Assembly (NCBI GenBank): GCA_933228895.1
Contig: OW121846.1
Span: 22,573,088-22,637,087 of the forward strand
DNA length: 64,000 bases
Direction of reading: 5' to 3'
From: Platycnemis pennipes
Lineage: Eukaryota > Arthropoda > Insecta > Odonata > Platycnemididae
Below the pieces are notes generated by a model that made no database searches, was not told the DNA's origin, and saw nothing but the letters and a program-made list of their open reading frames with translations. Shown here piece after piece: positions 560 to 36,240 of the stretch. How positions within the stretch are numbered: the first letter of the stretch is position 1; each line of letters starts with the position of its first letter. Position numbers and translations under genes: made by a program.

Positions 560-1660
560 TGGAGCATTTTCTATGCGGTCTGATCTAATGGTTCCAACAC
601 ATTTGAGACCTTTATTGGACAAGGATCAGTAGTTTCAAAGAGTTGAAGTAATTGTCTACAAAGACTGTGCTTTGATCTGGGAGAAATCTATTGAACATTC
701 TCTCCACCACCGACGAGCCGAGTGTTGTGCCTGACTCTTTCACTACAGTAGCTCCCATATACAGTTCAAATTTTAGGAGATATCCCTTCGATGTGTTGAG
801 GCACCCAATCTTGAACCCATCTTCCCGAGTATGAACTGCTTTGCAAAGTGATGACCATAATAGGGCTCTATGGCTTCATCAAGGGAAAATTTGTCACCAA
901 ATGTAGTAGCAAGTTCTTGAAAATTTTTGCAGGTGCTCCATAATGGGGCATACCTTGTAAAGTCTGTCACTGCAGTCATTACTTGAGTTGTCATTTAGGT
1001 GAAAAAATCTGTGAATCTGCTCAAATCTATTTCTTGACATAAGAAACGAGGGCATTGTGAGTATCAGCACGCATTCCCCAGTACATGCAATAAATATTTT
1101 TCAATATCGCCAGGGGAACAGTGTATGTTGTGGCCCTTCTGCATGGCATAATTCATTATTTCTTTGCATATTTTTGAAATTATTTCGTCATCAAAAATTA
1201 ACCGAAAGATATCAATAGGGCTATAGATTTTATTACGCCACTCTTTGATGCAGCTGGGCTCTCTAACCTCACTCCGAGGGAATTCAAGCGCTTTGTGTAA
1301 ATTTTTGTTTCTCCATGTTCTCACTTTTTTCTTGTTAGGCACTGAATACACTATTTTTGGTCAATTGTAAGGTCTTGAAGCAGTATTTGATGGAATATCA
1401 GTAACAGAGTCATCGGTGGTTTCTTGCATGACATCTAGGTTGCTCCTAAGTCTCTGATAGTAGCTAAGTTACCTTCGCAGTCACTTCCTACATCATCTTG
1501 GTCACTGTCAAAACCATCTGGAACAGCAGATAACCAACTCCAGCTCATCTGCTGATTCAATGCATGTTGTGAACTATTCGTCGTCCTCTAAAGTCTCTCA
1601 AATGTTCAGAACTGCCTCCCCGTCCATACCTGGGTTAAACCTGAAAAAAGGGTATTTTAG
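560..1660 (-). pseudogene. Decayed piggyBac-type transposase relic
   Basis: On the - strand, broken reading frames match the piggyBac (PGBD, DDE_Tnp_1_7) transposase order. An acidic N-terminal segment (DGFDSDQDDVGSD, near 1500) comes first. Then comes KFSLDEAIEPYYGHH (in 773-994), corresponding to the first catalytic Asp region. Then VFVDNYFNSLKLL (near 650) carries the second catalytic Asp, and CVGTIRSDR follows near 590. Several frameshifts and stops separate these blocks, so no protein can be made. No TTAA-flanked terminal repeat was identified. The family assignment is firm; the exact limits are not. This relic is distinct from the one at 20.4 kb, which lies on the other strand with different wording of the same motifs. 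Confidence 0.85.
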
Positions 1661-7981: not shown

Positions 7982-10274
7982 CAGTGGTACCTCAAGAGTG
8001 AGTGCCCTGACATACGAGTTTTTTTGAGATATGAGCCTTCACTAGGGTCCTGAGATACGAGTCAAAATTTGAGAAATGAGCCAGCCTTGGTGACGTCATG
8101 GCTAATTGGCATAGCCAGCCACTGCTTAGATTTGCGAGTCTTCCATGCTCAATTCATGTGTTCACTTCGCTGCAGAAGCATCTCTGCCAAGTTGTTTTAA
8201 TTTTGTGTTTTTTTGGAACTTAAGTTCCTAGTTATTTACTTATTTTTTTCGTATAACCATGAGTCCTAAGAAGATGAGTGTAAAGAACAGTGCTGAGAAA
8301 AGGAAAAAGGTGATATCCATGGAATTAAAGGTTGAGATAATAGACAAACATGAGCAAGGTGTAAGGTCATAGACTTGACAATTCAGTACAATTGCACAAC
8401 TTCTACGATATGTACTATTCTGAAGCAGAAGGACTCGTTAAAGTCTATAACTCCTCCGAAGGGTGTTAAAATTATTTCAAAGCTACGCAACTCTGCCCAT
8501 GAAAAGATGGAGAATCTTTTGCTTTTGTGGTTGACAGAGAAGCAGCTCACTGGAGAGACTGTGACTGAGAGTATAATTTGCGAGAAGGCACGAGTCATTT
8601 ATGCAGATTTGCTGCAGCAGAGCCCAGGTACTTCAGCACAGGATCAGTTCAAAGCCAGTTGAGGGTGGTTCGAAAATTTTCGAAAAAGGACTGGTATTCA
8701 CTCCGTTGCCAGGCACTGTGAGGCAGTGAGTTCTGATTCTATGGCGGCTGAGGAATTTGTGAAAACTTTTGCTGAATTGATCGAAGCCCATGGATATATC
8801 CCCCAACAAGTGTTCAACTGTGACAAGACAGGACTCTTCTGGAAGAAAATGCCAAGCAAAACTTATATAGCAGCAGAAGAAAAGAAGATGCCAGGACACA
8901 AGCCCATGAAGGATAGGTTGACTCTTGCACTGTGTGCAAATGTGAGTGGTGACTGCAAGGTCAAGCCGCTGCTCGTATACCACTCAGAAAACCCCAGAGC
9001 CTTCAAGGCATATTAAGTTTATAAAAGAGAAGCTACAGGTTATGTGGAGGGCAAACCCAAAGGCGTGGGTCACCAGGAAATTTTTTGTGGAGTGGGTCAG
9101 CTTGGTCTTTGGTCCTGCCGTTAAGAAATACCTTGAGGTCAATGAATTACCCCTGCAAGCCCTACTCATCCTCGACATTGCTACTTGCCACCCGCTAAAC
9201 CTTGAGGACGACATCCTAGAAGAGTTCAACTTTATAAAGGTTCTCTACCTTCCACCCAACACCACCCCTATTTTACAGCCCATGGACCAACAGGTGATCT
9301 CCAATTTCAAGAAACTTTTTACCAAACACGTTTCAATGCAGCTTTGAGGTTATGGAGAGCACAAACCTCACCCTTTCAGAGTTCTGGAAGGGCCCCTACA
9401 ACATTTTCATATGCCTCAAAATTATTGATATGGCCTGGCAGGGTGTTACAAAAAGGACCGCAATCTCTGCATGGAAAAAACTGTGGCCTGAGGCTGTGAC
9501 TGAAACGGACATTGAAGGATTTGGACCAAGAGGAAGTACTGGAAGAGATTGTGTATCTCGGAAGGTTCATGGGCCTGGAACTGGATGAGGGAGATATCCA
9601 AGAGCTTGTCAAAGCACATTCCGAGGAACTGATGACGGAAGAGTTGGCCAAACTACAGATGCAGCAACAATTGGAACTTCTGCAGGAGATAGCAGAGGAG
9701 CCAGAAGCAGAGGAGTTTATCTCTTCAAGTGAGATAAAGGAAGTGTTGGCAATGTGGGAAAAAGTTTCGGACTTTGTTGAAAAGAACCGCCCTGAAAAGG
9801 TTGCAACTGGTCATGCATCAGCGCTGTTTAATGACACTTTCCTAACCCATTTCAGAAACATTCTAAAAGGGAGAAAGAAACAAAGCTCCTTGGGCAGGTT
9901 TGTATTGAAATGCCCTGTGGATGAAAGTGACGAAAGCTTGATAAAAAAGAAAAAAACTACTGAAGAAGAAAAAGTGAAGCAAAAGTGAGGGGAATGAAAA
10001 AATCAATACGTATGTACCATCTGCTAATCGACTTTGCCAATATGTTTATTTCTTTAAATTATATTTTATTAGGTTTCATTTTGTTTTTGTACAATGTTTG
10101 TTCATTATAAATATTTTTTTTACGTTGAAAACATTGGGATGCTTTTTTGGGGTCTGGCATGAATTAATCACATTTCAATTAATTTCAGTGGGGAAAATTG
10201 ACTTGAGATACGAGTATTTTGACTTACGAGCTCAGTAACGGAATGAATTAAACTGGTATCTCAAGGTACCTCTA
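7982..10274 (+). mobile_element. Tigger/pogo-type DNA transposon, near full length
   Basis: About 2.3 kb bounded by terminal inverted repeats. The left end CAGTGGTACCTCAAGAG (preceded by TA) pairs with the right end, whose reverse complement reads TAGAGGTACCTTGAGATAC. Both ends continue into 'ATACGAG' motifs (8010-8065 and 10200-10235). The left TA at 7980-7981 matches the expected TA target duplication, while the right flank is CA, a probable mutation. Length, TIR wording and the encoded CENP-B/jerky-like transposase all fit the Tigger branch of the Tc1/mariner superfamily. Confidence 0.9.
8259..9988 (+). pseudogene. Tigger/pogo transposase, frameshifted
   Basis: Begins with a likely ancestral start, MSPKKMSVKNSAEKRKKV, leading into a CENP-B-type helix-turn-helix region (ELKVEIIDKHEQG, then TTSTICTILKQKDS after a frameshift). 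The DDE domain follows. VFNCDKTGLFWKKMP carries the first catalytic Asp, LILDIATCHP the second Asp region, and YLPPNTTPILQPMDQQVI the hallmark of the third. The C-terminal part (9512-9988) is an acidic tail. Frames change near 8365, 8660, 9000 and 9347, so the gene is dead despite long open blocks. The blocks cover essentially the whole protein, and the relatively mild damage suggests moderate age. Confidence 0.9.
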
Positions 10275-11884
10275 CACTTTGTAAAATTCGGCTGCTTTTT
10301 TATTCATGGTGAAACATGGAATGGAAAATCCTTAATTACAAGAATCACTGAGGAGGAGGCATTTGTGGGGGGGTTCTGGGTGCAATTGGGGTTGCCCTGG
10401 GTGGGCACACTGAAAGAGAAGAGAAAGTTGGTGAGGTTTACAAGGTTATCATGTAGAGAATAGAGTGGAAAGGGTGGTGGGATGGTTAAGAGGGGTGAAG
10501 GGTTCACTGGAGATGGTCTCTCGATAAATTGCAACCATATAATTTCGAGTAGGCTAGAATTTCAAAAGGTTCTAAGGCATTAAATTTTGCACTCATTGTC
10601 ACACAAGTGTGGAACAAAAGCTCTGCACATGAGTGACACAATTGCCAGTACAATGGCAAAAAAATTTCATTTGTGCTTTATTGAATTGATTTTGAAGAGA
10701 AGAAGCTTATTGGAGGCAAAATTTTATGAATTTATATGATTATTAACAGTATATTTGCATAGGCATCAGTTTTCCAATCATATTCATATATTTTTTCTGT
10801 CTTTAGTCTACGAGTCAGCTTGCTAGATGCTTGGAAATGGAAACAGTTTCTATCAAGTGTAGGCTACCCACATTCCCCAACTTTCCTGCTCATTTGTAAT
10901 TCTCACTATTTTAATCCCAATTCTCCTAAAATTCCCCTTTTCCATTGTTGGCATTCGAGACTTTGAGGCTATGAGTTATGTAAAGTTTTAGCTGCTATAA
11001 TTCAATGTTCACTGGAGAAAATTTTTATCTCTGCTTAGATGTATGTATGCTGTCTTTGTAAATGGTGTCATGAAAGGTATTTTAGGATTTCATGATTATA
11101 AATGTAGCAGTGTCTCCTGAGAAGGGTCATACATGCAAGAAAGAGTTGAAACTACAAAAATATTACCTCTAAATAACATTTAAATTTCGAATCCTGGTAT
11201 TATGAATGCAGAACTTTTCCATTCCCTTATAAGTCACATCACTGACTATCGTAACATTAAGATTTGATTACCTATAATTCAATATATGTTAGCCTAATTA
11301 CTGCAATTAATTCTCATTAGTCTTAATTCAAATATGACCTCTAAAATGAGAACTGATTGCAAATATGATATTTCTCCTCAAACCCCCAACTCAAAATCAT
11401 CAGAATACAATCAAGCAAGGCAAAATCTAGGACATGTGATCTTTAAACATACTATAAAGTTACATTGGGATTATGTCTATATGTAACTTTGAAGGTCTGC
11501 TTTACCTCTCAAAATATTATCAATATTGGCAGAATCCTTATTCGCTGAATATTATAATGTTGTTTCTGAATATCGATTAACAGGGATCCTCCTTTCCTTT
11601 GGAAGGATCAGATCTTAGAATGTGCCTTAAGTTGCTAGAATAATATCAGCAGGCTTGGAAATCTTATCCTCTGGTAATGGTATCATTATTTCCTCATTTT
11701 ATCTTGTTACCAGACTGTGGAATATAATGATAATTGGGAAAGATTGTACCTAAAGCCATAAAAATGTCTTTTTTAAGCAATCTTACTGGGAAACACTCTT
11801 TCTTCAAATGTTGACAGTGCAGTATTTCTAGAAGTCCCTCATGGTTCAAAATTTATTTTCTTCCTGATTTAACTTCCAATTTAG
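10275..11884. other. NADK: Non-coding DNA upstream of the first visible NADK exon
   Basis: I looked for the preceding NAD kinase exons (segments with the GGDGT and GDGVIVSTPTGSTAY-type motifs) here and further left and found none. The stretch is probably intron. The open frame on the - strand at 10304-10534 is low-complexity and unsupported. Confidence 0.45.
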
Positions 11885-11967
11885 ATCTCAGTGCCCCCTG
11901 AAAGCAGGAATACATCATGGGTTTCATTTGATGGCAGGAATAGACAGGAACTCCTTCATGGTGACAG
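11885..11967 (+). CDS. NADK: NAD kinase internal exon, alternative version A
   Basis: This 83-bp exon lies between a polypyrimidine/TTTAG acceptor and a strong donor (GACAG|GTAAGG). It starts in phase 0 and ends two bases into a codon, reading I-S-V-P-P-E-S-R-N-T-S-W then VSFDGRNRQELLHGD plus a split Ser. NAD kinases (ATP + NAD+ to NADP+, cytosolic) carry exactly this segment, RNTxWVSFDGRxRQE..HGDS, in the C-terminal NAD-binding beta-domain. Joined to the exon at 20130 it gives HGD-S-LRVTTSIYPVPSI, the canonical continuation. A second 83-bp exon with the same phases and homologous content follows at 13489, so this is one of a probable mutually exclusive pair. Version A is closer to the typical animal sequence. 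The gene is truncated on the left by the window edge or very long introns. Confidence 0.9.
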
Positions 11968-13488
11968 GTAAGGGGTTAAACTGTGGCCTAATGCTGGAAT
12001 AAGCCACAGGAATCCCTTCACTATCCTGCCCAGTGCATGTGTGTGTTTGATTGCCATTGGATCTAAGATTTGACTGTGCAAATTAATATATTGTCTTGGC
12101 AGGTTATGGAAAATAATTATTCTAATGATTAATTGCGGTGTTGCATACAAATCTGCTGACTTGCTTTCTTTCTGTGCATGCATGTGGGAGTTATTTGGCC
12201 AGTATGATTGATTTGATGGGTGTGTAAGGAATGGAGATATAAATAAAAATGTAAAAAAATACCATTTGATTGATCCATATGTGTTTAAGCTAGGTCCTCA
12301 CCTTTAATTTGTAATGGAATAGTATTGATGTACTATTAGTTATGCCAAAGATTTTAATATTAGGTATTAATAGGAAGCTTCATTGGCCTGTCATTTAAGA
12401 ATGTATAGTGTTATGTGTTATACATATATAAAGTATTTGCATGCTAAAATTTATAGCATATGCTTTACATTACTCCAGTTATCAGGATGCTCTAATTGCT
12501 TTGCCAAGGATTTGATTCCCTTGGGTGAAAGCACACAATTTTGTTTATCAGCTGTTATTTCCTTATAGTATATTAATTTCCTTTGTTCATGTTATGCTCT
12601 ACAGATGAAATATTTTCTTATTGTTGATTGTGTAATATGTTACATATTTTTTCCTTTGCAATTGTGTAGTATTATGTTGTTACTGTAAAGGATTTAATTT
12701 ATTTCATATTTGTGCTCAGAGAAAATTAACAGTATCTGATTGATCAAACTGAATATAATATACAATTTAAAAGGGGAAGAGTATTCCAGAAAGGTGATTT
12801 TTTCCTTATGCTGAGTAGATGATAAGTTATAGAAAACAGTAGAAAAATTCTTGTTTGGCATCATAGATAAAATAAATATGATTGGTAGGTAAGTAAACAT
12901 ATGCTACAAAAATTTACTTTTGTTTTCCCAATGTAAAATAAAAAGTTTTAATGGAAATTGTAATTTGATGTTGCTTACTTATTTATGTAAAGATTTATCC
13001 ATTAGTCACAATACAGCAAGAGATATGAAAAATAGCTAATTTTGATTGTGTGCATGTGCCTGTATGTTTGTGGTGTGCATTGATGAATGTATGATATCTG
13101 TGGGAATTTGCAATTTGCGCACTCTTGCACTGAATGAACATTTTATTATTACTGCCTTTGAATGCATGTTTGCACATAACTTTCATGGATTCTCACTGTA
13201 TCTGTTGATCAAAACAAATTTTATGATGAAATATCAAATAACACAAAAATGTTGTGCATATATTTTTTTTAAATAAAACCAAATACTATTACATTATTCT
13301 TTTACTATTCAAAACATGCTTTATTCCTTTTATTCTAAATTTTGGCTGAAAATTTATTCCTTATTCCTTTCTTGGCTTTTTATTTCTATCAATTACGTGA
13401 CCAACTTTTCATCTCTGCCTCGATGGATGATTGTTTGCTGATTGAATTTGGCTGTTTGTGTGTGTGCATGGGTGTGGTATGTTTGCAG
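11968..13488 (+). other. NADK: Intron between the two alternative NADK exons
   Basis: 1.5 kb of AT-rich DNA without recognised repeats. The last 50 bases are strongly GT-rich (TTTGTGTGTGTGCATGGGTG, positions about 13454-13473) instead of a normal pyrimidine tract. Such a sequence could bind CELF/Bruno-type splicing regulators (inference). Confidence 0.7.
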
Positions 13489-13571
13489 ATCAAGCTGAAC
13501 TGCGACGCAAGGAGCACTGCCTGTGTTTCCTTTGACGGACGCCACCAGCAACAGTTGCGTGTTGGAGATAG
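13489..13571 (+). CDS. NADK: NAD kinase internal exon, alternative version B
   Basis: Also 83 bp, phase 0 at its start and two bases into a codon at its end, so it can replace exon A exactly. It reads I-K-L-N-C-D-A-R-S-T-A-C then VSFDGRHQQQLRVGD plus a split Ser. About 14 of 28 positions match version A, including Arg8, Thr10, the whole VSFDGR block and the final GDS. The conserved Trp is replaced by Cys and HGD by VGD. The acceptor is GTTTGCAG. The donor (GATAG|GTGTGT) is weaker than that of exon A. The preserved frame, preserved core motif and intact splice sites argue for a functional alternative exon over a decaying duplicate. NAD kinase identity comes from the SFDGR block plus the downstream exon. 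Confidence 0.85.
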
Positions 13572-16500
13572 GTGTGTTGCACATTCCTCACCTATTTTCT
13601 TTATTTTTCATGTCTTACTTAATAGTGCTTCATGATACTTCATACCACACAGTAATTTATGTAGGGTGGGAAATATTTCCTGTTAGAAAGCAGAGTAATT
13701 TCATTTTGGAGCTCATAATAATATTCATTGGGGACTAAAATATAAAGTAAAATTTGCTTTTGGAGGTGATGGCTTTACGTTTCATGTGTGTCCTACATAG
13801 TTCCATATTTAATCAAGGTAGGGGTCAAGGATTAATTCAGGCACTTTTGTGTAATGCACTATGATTTGTTTTGGATTAACTCTCCTTGTATTTTTTTAGA
13901 AAGTAATTTAACCATGAAGTGGTGTGAGTTAAGGTGCAGTCCATGGCTTCTTACATTTTGAGTTATGCTTCACCTAAGGTCTTATTCAGTAGTATTCACA
14001 AGTATCATCTCTTGAAATGTATACGTATGGTATCAGAGAGGAATTTCTCAAGTATTGCTGGTTAAAAATCCTTTTCATAAATGAACAGAAGGTACTAAAG
14101 AAATAAGATGGTTGTGTGGCATTGTAGGTGATCTGGAGTAAATTGGTTGCTGATAGGCATTCAAGGGCCCAGAACTGGGTGGCACCAAGCAACTTCTAAA
14201 TGTGTTAGCCTTTCCCTAGCCAAATCATTTTATTTATCTGTATTGATTTTTAATGCTAATAATTTAGTGTATTTTCTTGTATTTAAATGGAAACTCAAAT
14301 CATTGAGGCAGCATTGAAATGTGGTAACCCTTATAATATGAGATATGTGGACAGTTGTATTTATGAGCTGAAATCACATTTACTCATGATCTCATGGAGA
14401 TCTGCTCAACCCCATTCATTTTCCACATGAGGTAACCTTTGTATGAAAGCAGTAGCATTGATTAATGATAGTTCATATAGGAAAATGCAGACTCATCTTG
14501 AAAGACAAATCCTCTGTGATTGAAAAATGATCGATGATGTGTTCGACAAGCTTCATGTGATGGCTGGAGCTTCTGAAATCAACCCAAATCTTAGAAGCAG
14601 AGTGGTTTGAGAAATTATCTTGTAATTCTTTTCATGAATTTTGTGCCATTATATATTTTAATTCAACATATTATCATGGAAATAAACAAAATATTTTCTC
14701 TAACTTGCAATAAAAATCATAAGATATGTACTAAAAGATCAAATATAATTTTGAAAAATATTTTGAGTCATTAGATATTTTGATAACAATTGGCATCAAT
14801 ATTTGTGGAAATAGTAATGCTAACAACAAAGTTCGCTCAGTTTTATTTCTATATCTTACTTCTTTTTACATTTCAGAATTTGTACATGTATTCCTCTCAT
14901 AACACAATTCGTTGCAACTTTTAATGTATGCAGGACATAATGCTGCCAGGATTAAAAGGCTTTATCTAAAATGGCACATATGTACCTATATTAGTCACAA
15001 AATTGCTTACAACTTGAATTGATCATAAAATATGCACCAATTGGTAATCAAACCAATATAGGTATTTTGATTGAATTTCGTAATGATGTATGCAGTGTAG
15101 TAGTGGATACAATCTTATTAATGCTTGTAGTTATACAGGTACAGCAATTGCAGTGCATAAAATTTTATATCTGTAAACAAATATTTTGTGGTAAAAAATA
15201 TGCTAAGGGAGATCGCTTAAAATGAGGGAGTCCTGTATTTGGTTCCAATCAGGCTTGATAAAATTGAGCAGTCATTGTTTTTGTTAAGTAATTGCTTTGT
15301 TATTTATCTATAAGCCATTGCAATTATGGTATTTTCTTAAGTAGGCCTTGCTTCATTAATATTTGTACCAAACAATAAATGTATGAATTCTTGTAGTGAA
15401 TAACTGTAGTTGTCGATGTGTAGATTCCATATTGTTTTCTAAATCCATTGCTTTTTTAAAATAAAAATTATGATATAGCTTTGAGTCGATTTGGACTTAA
15501 ATCACTCAAATCAATCACTTACATCTGGCCAATTTGCTCCTTTTACAATAATTGTTGCTATTTTAGTTTGGGAATGGCTTTTATGAAACATATCTTACTC
15601 TTCAATGACTTAACACATTGCATGAAGAAAAATTATCGCATCATGTAAATACGTAAATTCAAACGGCCATTATCTTATTTGCTAGCCACTTACAAGTCTT
15701 TTTGCAAGATTCCAAGTAACCAAATTCATTATCATGATGAATGTTTTCCTAATCTGGAATAGGAGTCATTCGGCCCTTCACCTAGCTCTCCTTTTTAACT
15801 TAACTTAATTTCCAAGCTTTCTATTGAAACACTGCTATTATGATTTATCACACCTTTTGGAGAAACTACCTCAGAATATGATTTCCATAGATGCAGAATT
15901 ACTGAATAAACCACATGCTGTACGGCACTGTGCATAAGGTGCTTGTAAATTTTAACCCACTAATATTCTAAAGTTTTCAATTACATCTCACTTATACATT
16001 TATTTAATTTTGATACGGTATTCCTGAATGGAAATAACGCACAATGAATTATATGCCCTTCTAGTTCATTAATTGAAAAGTCTTTTGTCTATCTACCTGC
16101 ATAATCAAATCTCCCAAATATATTTTTGTTTTAGTATTTGACCCAAGAGATGAGCTGTAACAGATTTTTCTTTTATAAAAGAATGCTATACTCCTCTTAA
16201 CCACGTAACAAATTTGTATTACTTCTGTTTGTAACTTGATTTTTTTAGTTTTGGCCACTGGATATTTAAATTGGTGCTATTAAATTTTAATCCATACTAG
16301 CATACAAGAGCTCTATTCCCACAACTACTTCATGTCAGTTGAAGTACCTTGGCATGGTTTAACCTCCATAATTGTGAGCTGCTGAGTTTGAAATACATTT
16401 ATTGAATGTATACTAAAAGTCCATGCATTAATTACCTAAATTTTGAAAAGTGTATTATAATGTTGGTGGGGGCTTTTTTAGTATATAAGAAGAATGCGGT

Positions 16501-20129: not shown

Positions 20130-20334
20130 CCTCAGAGTCACTACCTCCATATATCCAGTGCCATCTATATGTGCTCAAGATCAAATCTCTGACTGGTTTG
20201 ATTCTCTTGCTGAATGCCTGCATTGGAATGTTCGGAAGAGGCAAAAGCACCTGGATGAGCTGTCAGACCTGACACATTCCAGCTCTAATGATACCCTGGA
20301 CTCATTAGAGCACACCGATCAACTGGATAGCTAG
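20130..20334 (+). CDS. NADK: NAD kinase terminal exon with stop
   Basis: Follows a T-rich tract and the acceptor TTACTATAG. The first base completes the Ser codon split by either upstream 83-bp exon. It then reads LRVTTSIYPVPSICAQDQ, ISDWFDSLAECLHWNVRKRQ and KHLDELSDL, ending in an acidic/serine tail ...EHTDQLDS and TAG. The YPVPSICxxD..SDWF.SLxxCLHWNVRKRQ block is the highly conserved C-terminus of metazoan cytosolic NAD kinase. The tail after it is lineage-specific. No AATAAA lies between the stop and a piggyBac relic that begins 102 bp downstream, so the 3'UTR is short, uses a non-canonical signal, or runs into the transposon. Confidence 0.96.
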
Positions 20335-20435: not shown

Positions 20436-21660
20436 TTAACCCTTAGAATGCCGAGGAGCAGTATCACGCACCTCCTGCAATGTCACTCTTAGATGCTGGT
20501 AGTTCACTGATTGTTGACATATGGCACCTAAATGCAGATTACTTATGAAGCTTAACCCTTGTAGTTTTTAAATTGACCACTGGTGTTTATCTTCCTTTGG
20601 TTTTACATGTGCTACATTTTTATGAAATTTACTTACATTTTGCTACCCCAATATGTCAAAATGGCATTAACATCCAAGTCTGCGTTTATTAGTGACGACA
20701 ATATAGCCAATTTTGTCAATTCTTACGGTGAAGATGATGATTTGAGGTATACATTGAAGGCGAGTGTTCCTGTGAAAGTGAAAAAGACAGTCTGATCATT
20801 TCAGAGTTGGAAAGTGATTGCAGTGATGTTGTTGCTCCTTTGAAACGTTATACATTACATTGTGCATTATTGTTTAGGTTTTTTTCTGCTATAAAGGTGC
20901 AAGACGTCCAGAAGAAAAGGCTGAGATAAAAAACAATGGCCTCAGTCATGTAGTAGTGACCAAGTTGCTCCAACTCAGGAACTACCTGAATAAGGGATAT
21001 CATGTGGTAATTGACAACCTCTTCACCAGTATTGCTCTGATGAAGTACCTGTTTGAAAATTCAACTTACCTCACTGGAACAATAAGATCAAACAGAAGGG
21101 GCTCCCAAAGGATATTATAGCAGGGTATAATGTAGGACAGGTGAAATATTTCCGTAGTGATGAGGTTCTTTTGTGTGGAGAAAAAAATATAAAAAAAGCC
21201 ACTTTTGCTACTTTCAACCCATGCAGTTGCTGAGACTGAAACCTTGCAAAGACGACAATTTGCACATGAAAGAGAAATAACCAAGCCAGTAATAATAAAC
21301 CAAAACAATAAAATTATGGGGGGAGTTGATGCATCAGATATGATGTTTTACACCTAACGAGATGAATGAAGGACACTAAAATATTGGAAAAAGGTGGTTT
21401 TCAGTATCTTTGCCAATATGGTATAAATTGTTAAATAATATACAAGGAGAATACATCTGGCAGAATTATGTCCCATATCCAGTTCACTTCCTCTATTATA
21501 CAGGCAATTGAGGAAGAATGGCTGGCTGTAAAGGGGAAGGTGAAAATGAAACAGTATCTAAGAATGCAATATAGCTGGTAGTTGTGCAAGAATACAATGA
21601 ATAGGCCCAGATGAATACATTTTAAAAAAAGCTGAGGGAAGTAACCCCCAAAGTTTAGGA
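20436..21660 (+). pseudogene. piggyBac transposon relic next to NADK
   Basis: Starts with TTAA-CCCTTAGAATGCC, a typical piggyBac target and terminus. On the + strand an N-terminal frame (20660-20795, ending ...YGEDDDLRYTL) is followed, after a deletion and stops, by the DDE core. That core includes a lysine/arginine-rich segment, NKGYHVVIDNLFTSIALMKY with the catalytic Asp (near 21010), STYLTGTIRSNRRG, and NKIMGGVDASDMM with another conserved Asp (21308-21345). Many stops follow. The coding half is severely decayed. The right terminus was not identified; the region 21690-21900 holds two related palindromic motifs that may be part of it. Confidence 0.85.
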
Positions 21661-32722: not shown

Positions 32723-33404
32723 CTGCAAAGATAATTCATTTATACTCATTAGCATAGTGTGCTTAAATGAAGGATGAAAAACAGTAATTTCGAACTAGGA
32801 ACATAAATACTTCCCTGAAAAAACTCAGATGATAAGGCCCATATTTTTGCCATAAAAAGTGCAAAAAATACATTTAAGAAATAAAATAATATGATAACAT
32901 AATGTGCTAATTTCTTACTATACTAAGAAATAAATTATAAACTTAAATTATACCTACATAAATTCCATGGGATTTTTAAGCTCTAATTATTCATAATATA
33001 TGAAGGAGCTGTTGAAATTTAATGATGGTTTTCTGAAAGTCCAACATTTGGGCACACATTTCAAGGTGCTCATATTTTCAATTTGGGTCATAATGCTCAG
33101 AATCTTATTGTTCCAGTTGGTTCCATAACATTTACAGTAATTCATCCACACATGAATGCTCTAGTTCTGTCAGAAGTACTCATAGCTTTTGAGCTTGACT
33201 CCTACCCAAATGTTATGAGGATATGGCTTTTATTGAATGGCAACAATGGTTTAGAATAGCAATGGCTGGAGATGTGATTGAAATCCAATAATTACAAATC
33301 AAATGTGTACAAATGAAATACTGTCCACGATTTCATTTGATTCTCTGTCCCGGGCATCTCAAAGTCTATCTCGGGAATTATTTTTCTGTCATTGCATTAC
33401 ATAC
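32723..33404 (-). other. Intron of the PH-domain gene
   Basis: A 682-bp intron with donor AAG|GTATGT at 33404 and acceptor TTTGCAG at 32723. AT-rich, with no recognised element inside. Confidence 0.8.
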
Positions 33405-34651
33405 CTTGTTGTTACTTTCTTGCCATTATGTGCTGCTATCCTCTCCCTATCCAGTCTTGCCATCTCCTCCTGCAAACTCCAGATAGTTTCCTCTTCTTCA
33501 GCAGCTTGTTTTTTTATCACTGACAAAATGTAATGGTGCTGACTTAGTTGGGAATTAGGGGATGTGGAAGGTGTTGAAAGGTTTAAGGAGAGGGATGAGC
33601 AGGATGAAGAAGGAGAAGGCACTGAAGGTAAGAGGATGGATGTCAAAGATTCCGACGAAATAGAATGGGATAGGGAAAGTGGCTGACTGTTGTTTAAGAC
33701 TGCTGAATTAGCTGCCAAGGGAATGTTTTCAGTTTTCACCATTGAGTCAACTTTTACAACACCATGTGCACCATTGCACAAGTTGTGTTTTGAGTAATTA
33801 TTCATATTGACATCCTTTGTCTCACTTCTCTTCATCATACTTAATGCATGTTGAAATTGTCCATTAACCACATCCTTTCTGCTTCCCCCACCTAGTGCAA
33901 TATCCTTACCTAAGTCTAATTTTTGGTTTGACTTGAGGAACACATTATCCCCCTCACAATTTGCATATCCACTTCGAGTAATGTTCTGTGTGCTTTCACA
34001 CGTGTAACTCTGAGAGCGCACAGTCTTCTTGGGTAGTTCTTTTGTTCCAGTGGCCCACATTGCGTGGCCAATGGCTGAGTGCCCCCCCTTGCATTCAGGG
34101 GCCTTACCCTCCTCCATCACCTCCTCACTCCCCTCCTCATCCCTCTTCCCTATCCTCTCAAAGAACAGCCGTAGCTGTGACACAACAGAAATTTGAGTCC
34201 CACTCTCCAGGGAACACGGGACGGGGAAGTCCGATGGGAGGTCATGCAGGGACTTGGCTCGCTTGGCCCTGTTCCTGGCCACTGACTTACACGGAGGCTG
34301 TTGACCGAGGTCCTCAGAGCTCGCGCATGGTCGACTGGATGAGAGGTGCTTTCGTGGCTCATGTGCGCTGCTGCTCCCCGTGCCACCCAGAGCCTCGAAC
34401 AATTGGCGGCGCTCGTGGACAGTGGCACTGCCTTGCTGGCATAGCTCTTTCAGCCGTGCCACCTCCTCAGAGAGGCGCTCTTCTGGCAGTTGCTGTGGGT
34501 CAACGCTTTGCAGCTCATCACTGTCATCTGGGTGAGGAGGCTCCGTGATGCGAAGGATGTCAAGAAAGCGCACATCACCCAAGGGCGTTTGCTTCATCAG
34601 CTCCACAGCCAATGTCCGTGTCCAGCGGGAGAAGCTCTCAGCATCCTCTGC
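33405..34651 (-). CDS. PH-domain/coiled-coil protein, large central exon
   Basis: A 1247-bp open exon with acceptor CCTGCCCCCAG and donor AAG|GTATGT. It starts in phase 0 with AEDAESFSRWTRTLAVELMK, the C-terminal alpha-helix of a PH domain whose beta-strands are on the exon at 44612-44856. Next come QTPLGDVRFLDILRI and a charged helix (ERLSEEVARLKELCQ). A long low-complexity, Ser/Pro-rich, presumably disordered region follows (residues about 80-350 of the exon), with NRAKRAKSLHDLPSDFP as a possible basic motif. The end is predicted helical (KKQAAEEEETIWSLQEEMAR). Codon use is GC-richer than the surroundings in its first half. A + strand open frame of 186 codons at 33988-34548 is a shadow of this exon. 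I do not recognise the orthologue. Confidence 0.88.
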
Positions 34652-36240
34652 CTGGGGGCAGGAAATGGTACATTCAATGGTGCCATTTTCATCAAGGCAT
34701 GCACAGGTTCAGTGTGGAATTAAAAATAATCTGTAAAAACTGAGTTAGATCAGGATCACCTTGAATTTATAAAACTAAGTTTCCTCATTTGAGCTACACG
34801 TCTCTCATGTAATTGGTATTCTTATTGATTCTTCATTTGCATCAACCTTCCCCAAAGAAATCGACTGGAAAATGAGAGGTTTATATTAAATTTGAAAACA
34901 CAATTAGAAATGAATGCAATGATGACCAGTTAAAGGAAGTGGAAGGGAGGGTTACCCACAGAAGCATGAGATAGGATACTGAATTTCCACAGGTAATATT
35001 TTAAGCTAGTGGGAAAAATTATGTGTTCATAATTCCTTAAATCTCAACACATGTGCACTTTTAAAGCTCAAAAAATCATTCTAAGATAAGTTCTGCCATA
35101 ATGACTACCCAATCATTTAATGAAAAAATTCACAGGGTGCTTTTCAAGTGCATGAAAATGAATGTATTTATCTAAATGAGACCTCAAGTTATACCTACTT
35201 TAATTTGCTGTGATTAATGAACCTCTCTGAGCCTAAGTTTTGTGTTAAACACTGGCAAATGACCAATACCAAATTCTTCCCAAGCCATCTACTAACAAGA
35301 AATTGTAAGTACATGGCTTGGAACTAGAAAGTGTTATCTGTGATGAATTTGAAAATACTACTCCCGTACTTTCTAGCTCAATAAGTAAGTTTATTTGGGA
35401 AATACTGCTAAGGGTATTTAACGCTCTCAAATGCTTAAGTTATAGAAGTATTTGTAGGACAATAGGTATGGTACCAATTTCAGAATGAAGGATCAAATAT
35501 TGAATATACATTTATTTATTGAGTTACATATGCTAGCCTCCGGTCCAAAACTATAGATGAAAGAGTTCATCTACAGTCAACTTATTTTGTTATACAAGAG
35601 GAATGAAGCTAAAGTGCTTTCAAGGTGTTTCATTGGCAATCAAATATGGAGATTACCAATAAGTTGGACAGTTAAATTCATTATTAGTCATTTGAATAGG
35701 GATACCTACTGAGGATTAAGGTAATTTTCACCCTGAAAAAGTACAACGTTTAATTTTTTTTTTTGAGGTCTGTAAAAATGTCTAATATTTTTTAACCACT
35801 ACCAAAGGATTAGGTGGGATATAGCTATTCATTCTATTTCACAATTTATGATTTGTTCAAAATATAAGAATAACTAAAATCAGAAAAAGTGGAGGTACAA
35901 TTCAAAAACAGGTACAATTCTTAAGAAAAAAGAAAAATATACTTTCCATTTTACCACATTTTTACTTTACTAGGACTTAATTGCATGATAATTAATGCAA
36001 TTAATTATTATATTCATATATATTAATTAATATATTAATATATATTATATATTAATTATTATAATACATTATAATACAACTAATTGTTATGTTTTTAATA
36101 ATTAAATACATACCATACTTTAGGTATCTACATCATTGTCAAGTGCGACTTTGTAATCTGTGTTTTCCAGTCTGTATACCTATATGCTTGTGGGTGTTTC
36201 AGACTGGGAGGAAAGGTACAAGGTGAGGAATGCATGGGTA
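34652..36240 (-). other. Start of the 10-kb PH-domain intron
   Basis: AT-rich intronic DNA with no recognised gene. It includes the AT-palindrome tract at 35985-36100. Confidence 0.6.
35985..36100. repeat. AT-rich palindromic low-complexity tract
   Basis: Almost pure A/T with nested ATTAATTA / TATATATTAATTAATATA inverted units over about 115 bp. It could extrude hairpins. Probably a decayed microsatellite. Confidence 0.7.

Follow-up and report, generated by a model that had tools for sequence, protein, structure and literature searches.

As read from its sequence, the NAD kinase (NADK) gene of this damselfly has two exons for part of the C-terminal catalytic domain that are probably mutually exclusive and of old origin. 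Two homologous exons, here called A and B, stand in front of a common last exon. It is very probable that they go back to a tandem duplication and that each mature mRNA takes up one of the two. The choice of A or B per mRNA would then yield two full-length enzymes that differ in a 27-residue segment alone. NAD kinase is responsible for the step that makes NADP, and the pair is notable both for the enzyme in which it occurs and for its spread. If the reading is true, a very old splice choice in a catalytic domain would form a regulatory layer of redox metabolism.

The pieces are already in databases, as the isoforms stand in public annotation. New here are the TGCATG density peak of the window in the intron between A and B and two composite motifs flanking the donor of A and the acceptor of B. 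The window is the whole 64-kb stretch that was analysed, positions 22573088-22637087 of contig 44 in a genome of 1.79 Gb and 88 contigs. No account of mutually exclusive or alternative catalytic NADK exons was found in the open-access literature, with supplements and most subscription papers outside this scope. In a paper on social-insect pheromones, mitochondrial NAD kinase 2 is the only NAD kinase mentioned (PMC6453924). Tandem duplicated mutually exclusive exons in general are described as a well-known kind that is often ancient (PMC9741552).

The exon pair and its reading frame

Exon A (11885-11967, plus strand) and exon B (13489-13571, plus strand) are each 83 nt long and run from phase 0 to phase 2. 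An earlier note on this DNA had placed them in this way, and both the translation and the borders (AG directly 5' and GT directly 3' of each exon) bear it out. Exon A encodes ISVPPESRNTSWVSFDGRNRQELLHGD, the canonical-type segment with R387 and H392 in human numbering, and exon B encodes the alternative segment IKLNCDARSTACVSFDGRHQQQLRVGD. The note's description of homologous exons with about half of their residues differing agrees with the alignment, in which A and B are identical at 13 of 27 residues and at 44 of 83 nucleotides. The 1.5 kb said to separate them is a TGCATG-rich intron of 1,521 nt (11968-13488, plus strand). It is preceded by an intron of 15,722 nt 5' of A and followed by one of 6,558 nt between B and the last coding exon (20130-20334, plus strand, stop included), which is common to both isoforms. 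The exon preceding A is not part of the window; its end, ...GVELK in phase 0, is at 22569249. The remaining NADK exons also lie upstream of the window, where protein-search matches start at 22486169, and the gene is about 107 kb long. A motif scan of window positions 1-21000 and of L009 (5.2 kb upstream) found no third SFDGR exon.

The frame was followed by splicing in silico. With A alone or B alone, it stays open through to the TAG at 20332-20334, the stop of the NAD kinase frame. When A and B are joined, nt 8-10 of exon B form a TGA, which precedes the last junction by 73 nt. When both are skipped, 20 foreign codons are followed by a stop within the last exon. The three outcomes had been foreseen in the earlier note. 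Given a stop 73 nt before the last junction on double inclusion, exclusivity would be partly enforced by the frame. A comparable logic is known from the duplicated exons Ab and 3 of U2AF1, where transcripts with both or neither hold stops and are lowered by nonsense-mediated decay (PMC5224494). U2AF1 is, however, a vertebrate splicing factor, and its exon choice proceeds via polypyrimidine tracts and U2AF (PMC5224494). Overall, the damselfly pair shows several features expected of mutually exclusive tandem exons: homologous neighbours, equal length and phase, intact splice sites, frame logic and conservation across species.

Three further explanations were rejected. Incompatibility between U2 and U12 splice sites does not apply, as every site seen is GT-AG with a U2-like consensus by eye. 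Steric exclusion by a short intron was rejected for this gene, in which 1,521 nt are ample. A second gene copy as the source of B was also rejected: a DNA search with exon B gave a single place in the genome, and each of the nine genomic protein matches is on contig 44, inside the NADK gene, so that separate loci for A and B do not apply.

The gene is an NAD kinase of the animal (human NADK1) type, as judged from its protein matches. The exon pair is beyond chance, as human NAD kinase structures are matched by either translated exon when it is joined to the last one, with a best E of 1.1e-32 for A and 2.7e-28 for B. The profile match to human NADK1 (PDB 9cr3, 8kgc, 9cr4 and 3pfn) has an E of 4e-188, and the upstream exons match the NADK of Ischnura elegans across the GGDG and TPTGSTAY motifs. 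The relatives among the matches listed contain PF01513 and/or PF20143. The best of them is the NADK-like isoform X2 of I. elegans (P0001), an annotated isoform to which exon B is identical at 27/27 residues. Exon A is likewise identical at 27/27 residues to NADK isoform X3 of Hetaerina americana. The last exon is identical to that of I. elegans at 68/68 residues. The first NADK exon, with identities of only 76% to I. elegans and 80% to H. americana, shows that the window comes from a different damselfly. Human NADK1 belongs to the same enzyme family and contains the same segment, in one version across the four matched PDB sequences that the comparison covers, in contrast to two versions in the damselfly.

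Remnants of mobile elements lie in the same stretch. A broken transposon sits in the intron 5' of exon A, where overlapping frames at 8663-9344 (plus strand) have matches to the DDE_1 endonuclease domain with E values of 2.8e-7 and 2.8e-20. Fragments of the transposase domain DDE_Tnp_1_7 at 1067-1360 (minus strand) and 20878-21117 (plus strand), with E values of 3.8e-5 and 1.3e-10, are two further transposon remnants, one on each side of the exon pair. A long open frame of 439 aa at 33389-34708 (minus strand) has no obvious transposon character and probably belongs, as an exon, to a different gene encoded on the opposite strand.

Isoforms, spread and age in arthropods

The two NADK isoforms proposed in the earlier note have their counterpart in relatives, whose annotated isoforms use one exon type or the other. 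Isoform pairs in five species among the matches listed differ beyond residue 100 only inside the segment. The Tachypleus isoforms X10 and X8 (P0156 and P0045) have 9 differences, all of them inside the segment, and the Halyomorpha pair (P0168 and P0039) is identical outside with 11 differences inside. In a second Tachypleus pair and in those of Anoplophora, Coccinella and Aethina the N terminus differs too, the differences beyond residue 100 being confined to the segment. A pair from Cloeon has one extra difference beyond residue 100, at residue 160. Two full-length B proteins (P0025 and P0124) come from contigs of 1,789 and 1,307 bases, which are so short that they look like spliced RNA.

The spread of the two types was assessed from three protein searches (best 120 of 824, best 120 of 516 and best 120 of 727 matches), which gave 193 different proteins and 107 named arthropod entries, two of them pooling two species. 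Segments with R at the position corresponding to human R387 were called A, and all others B. On this basis, the 107 named entries listed comprise 71 with A, 54 with B and 18 with both. In the fungus gnat Bradysia, a single change makes an otherwise A-like segment count as B; with this entry recounted as A, the numbers among the 107 named entries listed become 72, 53 and 18. Entries with both types among the matches listed include horseshoe crab and crab at one end and moths and wasps at the other, and the damselfly of the window is one further species beyond the 18. The listed B entries include a damselfly, mayflies, cricket, katydid, termite and stick insects; true bugs, aphid relatives, psyllid, thrips, lacewing, beetles and moths; and wasps, bees, ants, porcelain crab, ostracod, horseshoe crabs and scorpion. 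No B exon was found among the nine dipteran species listed, with Bradysia counted as A. As the list comprises the best 120 matches per search, little can be read from a species in which one type is missing. Similar exon pairs in so many arthropods suggest that these animals probably make two NADK forms. Each horseshoe crab also has two differing B-type sequences on contigs of unequal length (P0020 and P0035 in Limulus, P0042 and P0043 in Tachypleus), which suggests two NADK copies, each with a B exon.

The search of other insects for a second SFDGR exon, proposed in the earlier note, also bears on whether exon B might be a dead or dying duplicate that is rarely spliced and has no function. The B segments are the more variable between species, with a mean pairwise identity of 17.3 of 27 residues against 22.0 of 27 for A, and by eye the donor of B (TAG/gtgtgt) looks weaker than that of A (CAG/gtaagg). 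A dead duplicate does not fit, however, with B in annotated isoforms of 53 of the 107 named entries listed, nor with D383 and G384 of the SFDGR motif, which are invariant in 43/43 distinct B segments as they are in 38/38 distinct A segments. Frame and splice sites of the damselfly exon are intact. From the identity of exon B with I. elegans and the spread of B, the pseudo-exon reading was rejected, in line with the earlier note, and a functionless exon B is considered very unlikely. Another reading takes its cue from predicted proteins. In 12 of the 18 entries with both types among the matches listed, A and B stand in tandem in one protein, and it might be supposed that shifted splice sites bring both exons into one mRNA, so that the enzyme would be longer and contain the segment twice. 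The bridges between the tandem segments are unequal in length, though, some proteins lack the start of B, the segment is part of a compact beta-sandwich, and plain double inclusion in the window stops at once. Most of the two-segment proteins we take to be models forced to one product per gene, and an enzyme with both copies appears highly improbable. The mutual exclusivity, called probable in the earlier note, is supported by the 83-nt lengths and the frame logic; against it stand the single predicted proteins with both segments in 12 species among the matches listed. These include P0004 of Aphidius gifuensis, labelled isoform X3, in which the segments are joined by an 18-residue bridge, RYEYYLYFIIYYEFFFLQ, which from its letters resembles a retained intron of about 52 nt that keeps the frame. 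The Aphidius exons may be too close for splicing together.

The age of the pair was approached with a tree built from 38 A segments, 43 B segments and one human segment, 82 distinct ones in all, from which five truncated, shifted or mis-modelled segments were left out. All B segments lie on one side of a branch with a support of 97/95, with few columns and an unsettled bootstrap. Shuffled A/B labels need about 27 changes on the tree of 82 segments. Since column 387 defines the label, the tree was rebuilt without it. The free search tree then needs five changes. If the B segments are constrained to one group, the log-likelihood rises by 9 units, and this tree passes the AU test (p 0.656, with a long-branch warning). 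Crab B is nearest to insect B with and without column 387, and it is mainly columns 387 and 392 that tie chelicerate B to insect B. A pancrustacean origin of the exon pair is well supported by these sequences, while an arthropod-wide origin is likely but not proven. The pair could also have arisen independently in chelicerates and Pancrustacea, with convergent B-like changes. Such an origin would agree with the five changes of the free tree and with the chelicerate B segments, which without column 387 are closest among themselves, with a millipede A segment as their next neighbour. The single B branch obtained with all columns, the likelier B-together tree without column 387 and the position of crab B argue against it, and we consider two independent origins rather unlikely.

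The A-B intron and a possible RBFOX switch

The A-B intron contains seven copies of TGCATG, the RBFOX motif, starting at 12034, 12175, 12179, 12438, 13051, 13163 and 13465. This corresponds to 4.6 per kb, against 0.48 on the plus strand in the rest of the window. When stretches of 1,521 nt are slid along the window, the plus-strand maximum coincides with the A-B intron and the minus-strand maximum is 3. Three other hexamers (TGATTG, TTCCTT and TGTTTG) are more enriched in the intron than TGCATG. A composite motif was defined as GTGTG starting at, or up to three bases after, the final G of TGCATG. The window holds two such composites on both strands together. In the first putative RBFOX and GU composite (12034-12044, plus strand), 67 nt after exon A, GTGTG overlaps the last G of TGCATG; in the second (13465-13476, plus strand), 18 nt before exon B, GTGTG stands two bases past TGCATG. 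L009 (5.2 kb upstream) has none on either strand. As the motif was first noticed by reading the intron, the motif figures are after the fact, including those from shuffling: dinucleotide shuffles of the intron contain on average 1.56 TGCATG and reach seven in 2 of 2000 cases, and two composites were found in 0 of 3000 shuffled introns. The acceptor tract of exon B is GT-rich by eye.

TGCATG thus lies near the splice sites concerned, as it does in RBFOX-regulated exons. RBFOX sites upstream of an exon repress it and sites downstream promote it, which agrees with FGFR2, and on this rule both composites would favour A over B. SUP-12 and its relatives prefer GU-rich sites. With somewhat less than even confidence, we propose that a protein of the RBFOX family makes the choice, repressing B near its acceptor and promoting A past its donor, together with a GU-binding partner (CELF/Bruno or SUP-12/RBM24). 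An RBFOX-type switch would then act together with a frame-based clean-up of wrongly spliced transcripts. The effect of RBFOX is described as depending on whether it binds up- or downstream of the exon (PMC8742874), and in fly muscle Rbfox1 is reported to interact with Bruno1.

Known systems provide the model for such a switch. Exons 8 and 9 of FGFR2 (IIIb/IIIc) are homologous tandem exons, with intronic TGCATG upstream of the downstream exon that is repressed by Fox and ESRP (PMC2880598). In egl-15 of C. elegans, with exons 5A and 5B, ASD-1 and FOX-1 repress 5B via UGCAUG in the upstream intron (PMC3585155). The Fox partners are ESRP proteins for FGFR2 and SUP-12 for egl-15 (PMC2880598). In both cases the exons belong to the ligand-binding domain of a receptor and the switch was shown experimentally, whereas NADK is a metabolic enzyme whose switch is read from sequence. 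For exons 7a and 7b of unc-32 in C. elegans, RBFOX acts via UGCAUG and the CELF protein UNC-75 on a GU-rich element (PMC3585155); this gene encodes a V-ATPase subunit, however, and its UGCAUG lies in the intron after exon 7b.

The exons may equally be alternative as described and owe their exclusivity to competing RNA structures or a short intron instead of RBFOX, a reading that we also hold at a little below an even chance. Competing base-pairing is a mechanism known in insects (PMC5224494), and the supposed retained intron of Aphidius would be close to the lower limit for splicing. The A-B intron of the window is far from this situation with its 1,521 nt, and the inverted repeats found in 11700-14200 (14-23 nt, AT-rich, 78-93% complementary) include nothing convincing within that stretch.

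The segment in the enzyme

By alignment, the segment corresponds to human residues 368-394, and the numbering was checked by C349, L353 and R356, which are placed as in the cryo-EM paper (PMC12052686). It falls in the C-terminal beta-sandwich domain; the earlier note had assigned it to the conserved C-terminal NAD-binding region of NAD kinase. In the human enzyme, this domain comprises residues 238-402 and mediates dimer and tetramer contacts, and mutants of the tetramer interface lose activity (PMC12052686). None of the residues 368-394 is named in the abstract and three sections of that paper (PMC12052686). His223 of bacterial NAD kinase had no match in the open-access literature.

Among the distinct segments, place 387 is R in 37/38 A and Q in 37/43 B. 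At place 392, H is found in 35/38 A and 2/43 B, and at place 379 W is found in 37/38 A and 16/43 B. AlphaFold models, which were low in confidence, have a mean pLDDT of 58.3 for the I. elegans B form and 60.7 for the Hetaerina A form; each shows a turn at SFDGR that is flanked by strands. In the yeast NADH kinase Pos5 (PDB 3afo), Q stands at place 387 and V at place 392, as in many B segments. Pos5 is a distant relative, though, and the likeness of two residues in a variable turn is perhaps due to chance; it may serve as a lead on cofactor preference, no more.

As suggested in the earlier note, the isoforms may differ in affinity or regulation. It is possible, though unlikely, that oligomer stability or cofactor preference is tuned by the changes at R387, H392 and W379 around an unchanged SFDGR core, both forms being active kinases with tissue-dependent kinetics or regulation. 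Still more speculative, and on balance improbable, is a wider scheme: one duplication in an early arthropod would have been kept since the split of chelicerates and mandibulates, a switch of RBFOX and a GU-binding partner would let tissues set their NADP supply by splicing, B may accept NADH or differ in tetramer stability, and in flies CG33156 and CG6145 may share the split jobs. The suggestion on B comes from Q and V at both diagnostic places, as in Pos5. If the scheme holds, tissues would be contrasted for NADP supply, e.g., muscle or nerve against steroid-making tissue or fat.

Studies in insects make a division of labour among NADK forms plausible. In Drosophila, the NADK1-like CG33156 is required in the ring gland and for ecdysteroid production, and its loss is not made up by CG6145 or CG8080 (PMC5336252). 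Flies have two NADK1-like genes, CG33156 and CG6145 (PMC5336252), and no B exon in the nine dipterans listed; two genes may here replace two exons. In the silkworm, the prothoracic gland is reported to have roughly ten times as much of the NAD kinase-like isoform X2 as the tissue with which it was compared (PMC5336252).
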